Shown: positions 42,215 to 43,213 of the stretch, piece after piece
How the letters are laid out: the number at the start of each line of letters is the position of its first letter
Numbering within the stretch: position 1 is the stretch's first letter
From: Candidatus Zixiibacteriota bacterium
GTDB taxonomy: Bacteria; Zixibacteria; MSB-5A5; GN15; FEB-12
Assembly: GCA_028289585.1 (NCBI GenBank)
Contig: JANQPI010000035.1
Coordinates: forward strand, 404,717-468,716
DNA: 64,000 nt
Direction: 5' to 3'
The notes under the pieces: generated by a model
Told to the model about the DNA's origin: nothing
Databases searched by the model: none
Seen by the model: only the letters and a program-made list of their open reading frames with translations
Translations under genes and position numbers: made by a program

Positions 42215-42225
42215 GGGGGTTGACG

Positions 42226-42522
42226 GTGCCCATGAAAGTGCTCCGATTTTCCGTCACCACGACGGTCAAGATCTTCACCGGTGTCCCCTCACCATGGGTC
42301 TATGTATTGGTACCGCGGGAACAGACCGAGGCAACGCGTCTCTATGCCGACCGGGGCCTGGTGGCAATTCGCGTCACATTGGGAGAGAGTGAGTGGGATA
42401 CGTCGTTGATGCCGATGGGGGACGGCAGCCAATTCATTCCGTTGTCATCTAAAGTCCGGAAGCGTGAGGGGATCGAGGTCGGCGACCGGGTGTCGCTGAG
42501 CTACCACACCCGTAAACGATAA
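42226..42522 (+). CDS. DUF1905 domain protein
   Basis: The 98-residue protein has the DUF1905 pattern: SPWVYVLVPREQTEAT, RVTLGESEWDTSLMPMGDG, FIPLSSKVRKREGIEVGDRV and SLSYHTRKR. The biochemical role of this small beta-barrel domain is not known to me. The GTG at 42226 sits 6 bases after a GGGGG run; an ATG at 42232 is nearly as good. It ends 13 bases before the RAYT transposase. Confidence 0.75.
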   Translation: MPMKVLRFSVTTTVKIFTGVPSPWVYVLVPREQTEATRLYADRGLVAIRVTLGESEWDTSLMPMGDGSQFIPLSSKVRKREGIEVGDRVSLSYHTRKR

Positions 42523-42535
42523 CAACTCGTCAGCA

Positions 42536-43081
42536 ATGCCTGTCAGAAAGCGCATTGACTTAACCGGCCCCGCAATGTCCTTTGTCACGACGACTGTCGT
42601 CGACTGGAAGCCAGTATTCACAAACCGACAGTGTGCCAACATCCTGATCCAGACTATTTGTACGGCAGTAAAGCACGATGAAATCTCAGTTCATGCCTGG
42701 GTAATCATGCCGCATCACTTCCACTTGCTTTGCGGGTTTCCTCAAGTCGAGCGAATGTCAGAAATTGTTGGGGGCATTAAGAGTGTTTCCAGTCGCCGAA
42801 TGCGACGACTGCTTCTGAATGACACAAGTGCTGCATCAGCACGTGCCCGGCAGTCGCCCCCGGCTGCCGGGTGGAGACTATGGCAGCCTCGTTTCGACGA
42901 CGTGGTTATCACTAGCGAGAAGCAGTATCGCATAAAAGCGAACTACATCCATGAGAATCCAGTCAGAGCGAGTCTTGTCACCAATCCTCGCGATTACGAG
43001 CTTTCGAGTGCTAGAGAATGGGAGACTGGTGAGCCGGGGCCGATCCCATTGAATCGAACCTGGACCTTTACAGATGGATAA
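42536..43081 (+). CDS. REP-associated tyrosine transposase (RAYT, Y1/HUH family)
   Basis: The 181-residue protein has the Y1 transposase layout: an N-terminal strand MSFVTTTVVDWKPVF, the HUH-type metal motif WVIMPHHFHLL (about 62-72), LWQPRFDDVVITSE, and the nucleophilic Tyr in YIHENPVRASLV (about 139-150). RAYTs cut single-stranded REP hairpins and are usually domesticated single-copy genes. Here a palindrome at 42846-42871 lies inside the coding region (encoding about RQSPPAAGW) and a near-identical inverted copy starts 4 bases after the stop, at 43085. The frame is intact. Confidence 0.88.
   Translation: MPVRKRIDLTGPAMSFVTTTVVDWKPVFTNRQCANILIQTICTAVKHDEISVHAWVIMPHHFHLLCGFPQVERMSEIVGGIKSVSSRRMRRLLLNDTSAASARARQSPPAAGWRLWQPRFDDVVITSEKQYRIKANYIHENPVRASLVTNPRDYELSSAREWETGEPGPIPLNRTWTFTDG
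42846..42871 (+). repeat. REP-like palindrome inside the RAYT gene
   Basis: An 8-base perfect stem CCCGGCAG (42846-42853) pairs with CTGCCGGG (42864-42871) around the 10-base loop TCGCCCCCGG. The same element in inverse orientation is at 43085-43110 with 9 of 10 loop bases identical and two compensatory stem pairs changed, which argues that the folded DNA is conserved. Confidence 0.75.
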
Positions 43082-43084
43082 GGC

Positions 43085-43110
43085 GGCGGCAGCCGAGGGC
43101 GACTGCCGCC
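43085..43110 (-). repeat. REP-like palindrome just downstream of the RAYT gene
   Basis: GGCGGCAG (43085-43092) pairs with CTGCCGCC (43103-43110) around a 10-base loop. Read on the minus strand, it matches the copy inside the RAYT gene except for two compensated outer stem pairs and one loop base. The two copies face each other, 265 bases end to end, as in a REPIN-type pair. Confidence 0.75.
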
Positions 43111-43213
43111 CACGGGAACCCCAGCACTCATCCTAGACCACATGGACGATCCCCCTTGTAACTAGAATTCTGTGAAGATTACGTACTCGGCAGTAAATCT
43201 GAAACTAGATTCT

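Follow-up and report, generated by a model that had tools for sequence, protein, structure and literature searches.

A REP palindrome in frame within the catalytic core of a RAYT transposase gene in a Candidatus Zixiibacteriota genome

The stretch of DNA analysed here (the window, 64,000 nt) contains an intact gene for a REP-associated tyrosine transposase (RAYT, or TnpA-REP) of 181 amino acids at positions 42536..43081 of the + strand, and a DUF1905 gene (42220..42522, +; PF08922, E 1.5e-18) ends 13 bases upstream of its start. The RAYT matched the profile NF047646 with 113 bits (E 1e-32; cut-off 80 bits) and Pfam Y1_Tnp with an E-value of 9e-10. The AlphaFold2 model of the protein had a mean pLDDT of 91.9, with values of 97-98 across most of the core, and the best PDB match of the predicted fold was 4er8, the E. 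coli REP transposase-hairpin complex (E 1.3e-9). In an alignment of 41 RAYTs, all ten invariant columns were kept in the window protein, including the catalytic Tyr137 (codon 42944..42946, +, in the motif NYIHENPV), and so were the near-invariant H61 and H63 of the HUH motif (codons H61-F62-H63, 42716..42724, +). With an HUH motif, a single catalytic Tyr and matches to both profiles, the window gene is a true RAYT by protein family, as the preliminary description had it. A search for related loci in named genomes returned distant RAYTs alone (28-31% identity), and the tree placed the window RAYT with a long branch, the placement being weak.

Two copies of a REP, here called REP-A, lie in opposite orientation at this gene, one inside it (42843..42871, +) and one just behind it (43085..43113, -). 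The internal copy reads GTGCCC-GGCAGTCGCCCCCGGCTGCC-GGG and the 3' flanking copy GTGGGC-GGCAGTCGCCCTCGGCTGCC-GCC, and the unit common to both is GTGNNC-GGCAGTCGCCCNCGGCTGCC. The inverted arms (42842-42869 and 43087-43114) are 28 nt long, 89% complementary and spaced by 217 nt, which bears out the pair of inverted palindromes described earlier. The core GGCAGTCGCCCNCGGCTGCC had exactly two exact matches in the window, namely the pair itself, and none in 100 shuffles; with the GTG head added there were again two matches, a number reached by no shuffle, and the chance expectation for the unit in the window is none. DNA folding of both 29-mers gave an 11-bp stem with one T-G pair and a 4-nt loop (CCCC or CCCT), with hairpin energies of -13.2 and -13.8 kcal/mol and z-scores of about -4.6 (-4.66 for the internal copy). 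The copies therefore have the GT[AG]N head and the short palindrome of a REP. The preliminary description had proposed an 8-base stem and a 10-base loop, overlooking three inner pairs of that 'loop' as well as the 5' head GTGNNC, and had placed the 3' copy 4 bases after the stop codon; the hairpin in fact begins 3 bases past the TAA.

From the compensated outer pairs of the two copies it had also been concluded that the fold is under constraint. The compensation itself is correct, but constraint does not follow from two copies; the evidence for it comes from the REP family and does not extend to the internal copy. Across 42 distinct REPs in or around RAYT genes, 98.5% of cells were paired and three of eight pairs had changed on both sides, with a covariation score of 0.219, compared with 0.084 after shuffling and no more than 0.091 after sliding. 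Judged by this covariation, the hairpin fold of the wider REP family is under constraint.

The internal REP is read in frame (codons 42842-42871) as residues 103-112, RARQSPPAAG, and lies wholly within the ORF of a known protein, with H61 and H63 on one side and Tyr137 on the other, the position first assigned to it. The encoded residues fall in the alphaC-beta4 connector, which has 31 residues in the window RAYT vs 16-25 in 38 close relatives and ranges from 12 to 37 aa across RAYT groups. Without the ten REP-encoded residues the connector would have 21, and the net gain over the commonest connector length is 6 residues, not 10. When homologues were compared for the same residues encoded by non-palindromic codons, these residues proved to be absent altogether. 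In the AlphaFold2 model, residues 101-110 had a pLDDT of 57 and were predicted less confidently than any other stretch outside the termini. Length variation among RAYT subclasses is concentrated in this connector and the preceding one, and in subclasses 2.2 and 2.6 the residues inserted between alphaC and beta4 are near the REP-recognition region (PMC6006769).

The term REPtron denotes a RAYT gene with inverted GT[AG]G-headed REPs on its flanks (PMC2817692, PMC6006769). We compared 99 RAYT genes of the phylum, drawn from up to 132 genomes. In units of the GGCAG type a (+) REP lies 4-141 bp upstream of the RAYT start, and a (-) REP lies between 12 bp before the gene end and 61 bp past it. Among RAYT-flanking REPs, the orientation was (+) in 26 of 27 upstream and (-) in 28 of 30 downstream, so that the earlier remark that REPs normally flank RAYTs holds for the relatives. 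The window RAYT is flanked by a 3' REP alone, in the position and orientation of its relatives' 3' REP; no upstream REP was found in the window by core and GTG-head searches, and the (+) copy is internal. The REPtron of the window RAYT is thus incomplete, and other RAYT relatives likewise lack one flanking REP. The DUF1905 gene sits where the relatives' 5' REP lies (42220-42536 of the window).

A REP in the catalytic core was found in one of the 99 RAYT genes, that of the window, which rules out an internal REP as a conserved feature of RAYTs. The only other internal match (L066) was a 3' REP that read-through had made part of a C-terminal tail. This RAYT ORF (G074 C91; 370 aa) lacks the usual stop and runs across the 3' REP into about 170 more residues, an extension in which no Pfam domain was found.

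A census of REPs in the genome (3.15 Mb, 55 contigs) was made by pattern searches and yielded the further copies that had been anticipated: ten REP-A copies at up to two mismatches with the GTG head included, and none in the reversed control. One of them, an intergenic copy at G000 C21:473088, is identical to the internal 29-mer. Except for the copies in the RAYT gene and in a HAD hydrolase gene, all lie outside ORFs judged real, the family being dispersed and mostly intergenic, and about 10 copies is a low number for a REP family. A larger second family, REP-B (GGCAGGTGTCCTCACCTGCC), is present in the same genome and has copies 5' and 3' of a second RAYT (C16:218451-218972; sharing 46% identity with the window RAYT), with no REP inside that gene, and no matching hairpins were seen at a third RAYT (C23:422378), the genome having three RAYT genes only. 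Of 54 genomes searched across the taxonomic family, this one alone had exact REP-A cores among the matches listed, and REP relatives with an ACG/CGT stem are common.

Two other arrangements of repeats were observed in this genome. Three REP-B copies stand in direct tandem with 99-bp spacing within a larger repeated unit (G000 C21:475448-475671, L126). A further short palindrome, CCGGCGAAAGCCGGGATCCAG in form, recurs beside REP copies (L134 1401-1490, and the flanks of C16:300014 and C21:473088), which suggests a second intergenic repeat family.

The REP-A copy at C16:299081 is within the N-terminus of the HAD hydrolase ORF (C16:299058-299876, L134), and the sole in-frame ATG/GTG/TTG start found for this ORF, a putative one, is upstream of the REP. 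Most HAD homologues align from about residue 18 onward, the N-termini of those inspected are unrelated, and homologues from the same family are without the REP-A-encoded N-terminus. Coding insertions thus appear to be tolerated in this genome. All six frames of REP-A are open, with no stop codon, so that the element, once its length fits the reading frame, would be read through, in the RAYT as ten residues of a surface loop.

Taken together, these results make it likely that a REP-A copy was inserted in frame into the RAYT gene, or was placed there by gene conversion, and was tolerated there, the site being a permissive loop that adjoins the REP-binding surface. The preliminary description had already considered a trace of insertion, and this is what the internal copy looks like. 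The RAYT belongs to a lineage whose genes normally stand between two inverted, GTG-headed REPs with a GGCAG stem, and we propose that a REP-A of the gene's own family entered the coding sequence, in frame, at the alphaC-beta4 connector. The most likely route would be a RAYT-catalysed single-strand transfer of a REP-A strand, or possibly gene conversion by another copy, and the insertion would have been fixed because the frame was kept and the loop is permissive. Since the catalytic residues and the predicted fold are preserved, the RAYT with the insert is probably still active.

Cleavage of single-stranded REPs by TnpA-REP takes place on the 5' or the 3' side of the hairpin and mostly at CT, and the tetranucleotide head of the REP acts in cleavage and site choice (PMC8266576). 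Inspection by eye for CT sites next to the REP copies was of little use, CT being too common to be informative, and no target-site signature was found; the RAYT as the agent of insertion is what we infer. If ten copies land at random, the probability that one falls in this gene is about 0.0017, and with about 100 RAYT genes compared one such case is not very surprising, so no targeting need be invoked. The net gain of 6 residues counts against a simple insertion, as it calls for a 21-residue ancestor or a small replacement. Because the closest homologues are only about 43-46% identical, with no insert-free close orthologue among the genomes compared and one genome for the genus, we infer from sequence comparison both the direction (an insertion rather than an ancestral state) and the exact boundaries of the insert.

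It is improbable, on the other hand, that the internal copy is a displaced 5' REP, such that the internal (+) and the 3' (-) copies bound a mobile segment which holds the Tyr codon and whose excision would inactivate the gene. Although the window RAYT is without an upstream REP and the internal copy is oriented (+) like the relatives' 5' REP, several relatives with flanking sequence also are without an upstream REP and have none inside either, and the internal variant (GTGCCC...GGG) is that of a dispersed intergenic copy. Very improbable is an assembly artefact in which two RAYT fragments or contigs were joined at the 29-nt repeat. The genome is split over many contigs and, when the gene was tested as a recombinant joined at the REP, the best matches of its N- and C-terminal parts differed (L025, L054), but relatives differ little in score, the reading frame is unbroken on either side of the REP, there are just three RAYTs in the genome, and such a join would need a REP inside both source genes, of which none was seen in the 98 others.

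The preliminary description had further raised self-regulation, in which the RAYT would bind the REP within its own gene or mRNA and so limit its own expression. Single-stranded REPs are indeed bound by TnpA-REP (PMC8266576), and the transcript is predicted to fold with the internal hairpin formed. However, nothing points to such a role: a hairpin unique to one of 99 RAYT genes is not a conserved regulatory feature, the 3' REP of most relatives could serve equally, and a promoter- or terminator-like site was looked for near the internal REP and none was found, which leaves self-regulation with very little probability. That the palindrome arose by accident in ordinary coding sequence or in an old extension of the linker is scarcely credible, as the variation of connector length between RAYT groups is set against the identity of all 29 nt with an intergenic repeat, an exact GTG head and no match in the shuffles, which already contradict it.

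The in-frame REP-A insertion has parallels in several known systems. The window unit resembles a REPtron in having a RAYT, a GTG-headed palindrome with a short loop, a 3' REP in (-) orientation and dispersed copies in the same genome, and differs from it in having no upstream REP, one REP in frame in the catalytic core, and about 10 genome copies. Peptide-encoding intragenic REPs are known in uvrA, dnaE2, recB and other genes, including DNA repair genes, and the only RAYT overlaps reported in the available text of that work are at the ends of the gene (5'ov, 3'ov) (PMC3733652). Like these intragenic REPs, the window REP decorates a protein of known function in frame; unlike those described there, it decorates the REP's own transposase. 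Palindromic elements of Rickettsia, cited in PMC3733652, are likewise inserted in frame in genes for proteins, but the same paper places them among CGTC-tagged REPs, for which it finds no association with a transposase gene. In RAYT subclasses 2.2 and 2.6, insertions of 10 aa and 21 aa, respectively, occupy the same connector, are of similar size and lie near the REP-recognition region (PMC6006769), but they are subclass-wide, whereas the window insert is found in one gene and is made of REP sequence. Our literature search, of incomplete coverage, found no REP inside a RAYT core. Intragenic REPs are thus already known, and the new part, as read from the sequence, would be a REP in the core of its own transposase.

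RAYTs are believed to coevolve with their REPs, and we know of no established origin for the group-specific loops near the REP-binding surface of RAYTs. The window gene, with a REP lying in just such a loop, offers a concrete example from nature for the question of how these loops are gained. There is a slim chance that the ten REP-encoded residues were co-opted and alter which REP the enzyme recognises, which would fit the TCG/CGG-stem REP found, among the matches listed, in this genome only. If the insert is neutral, it would be one more tolerated intragenic REP, and would indicate that a RAYT gene can itself be hit by the REP mobility it drives. If the residues were co-opted, loop insertions in RAYTs could arise from the very repeats that the enzyme mobilises, which would provide a route for the joint diversification of enzyme and target.
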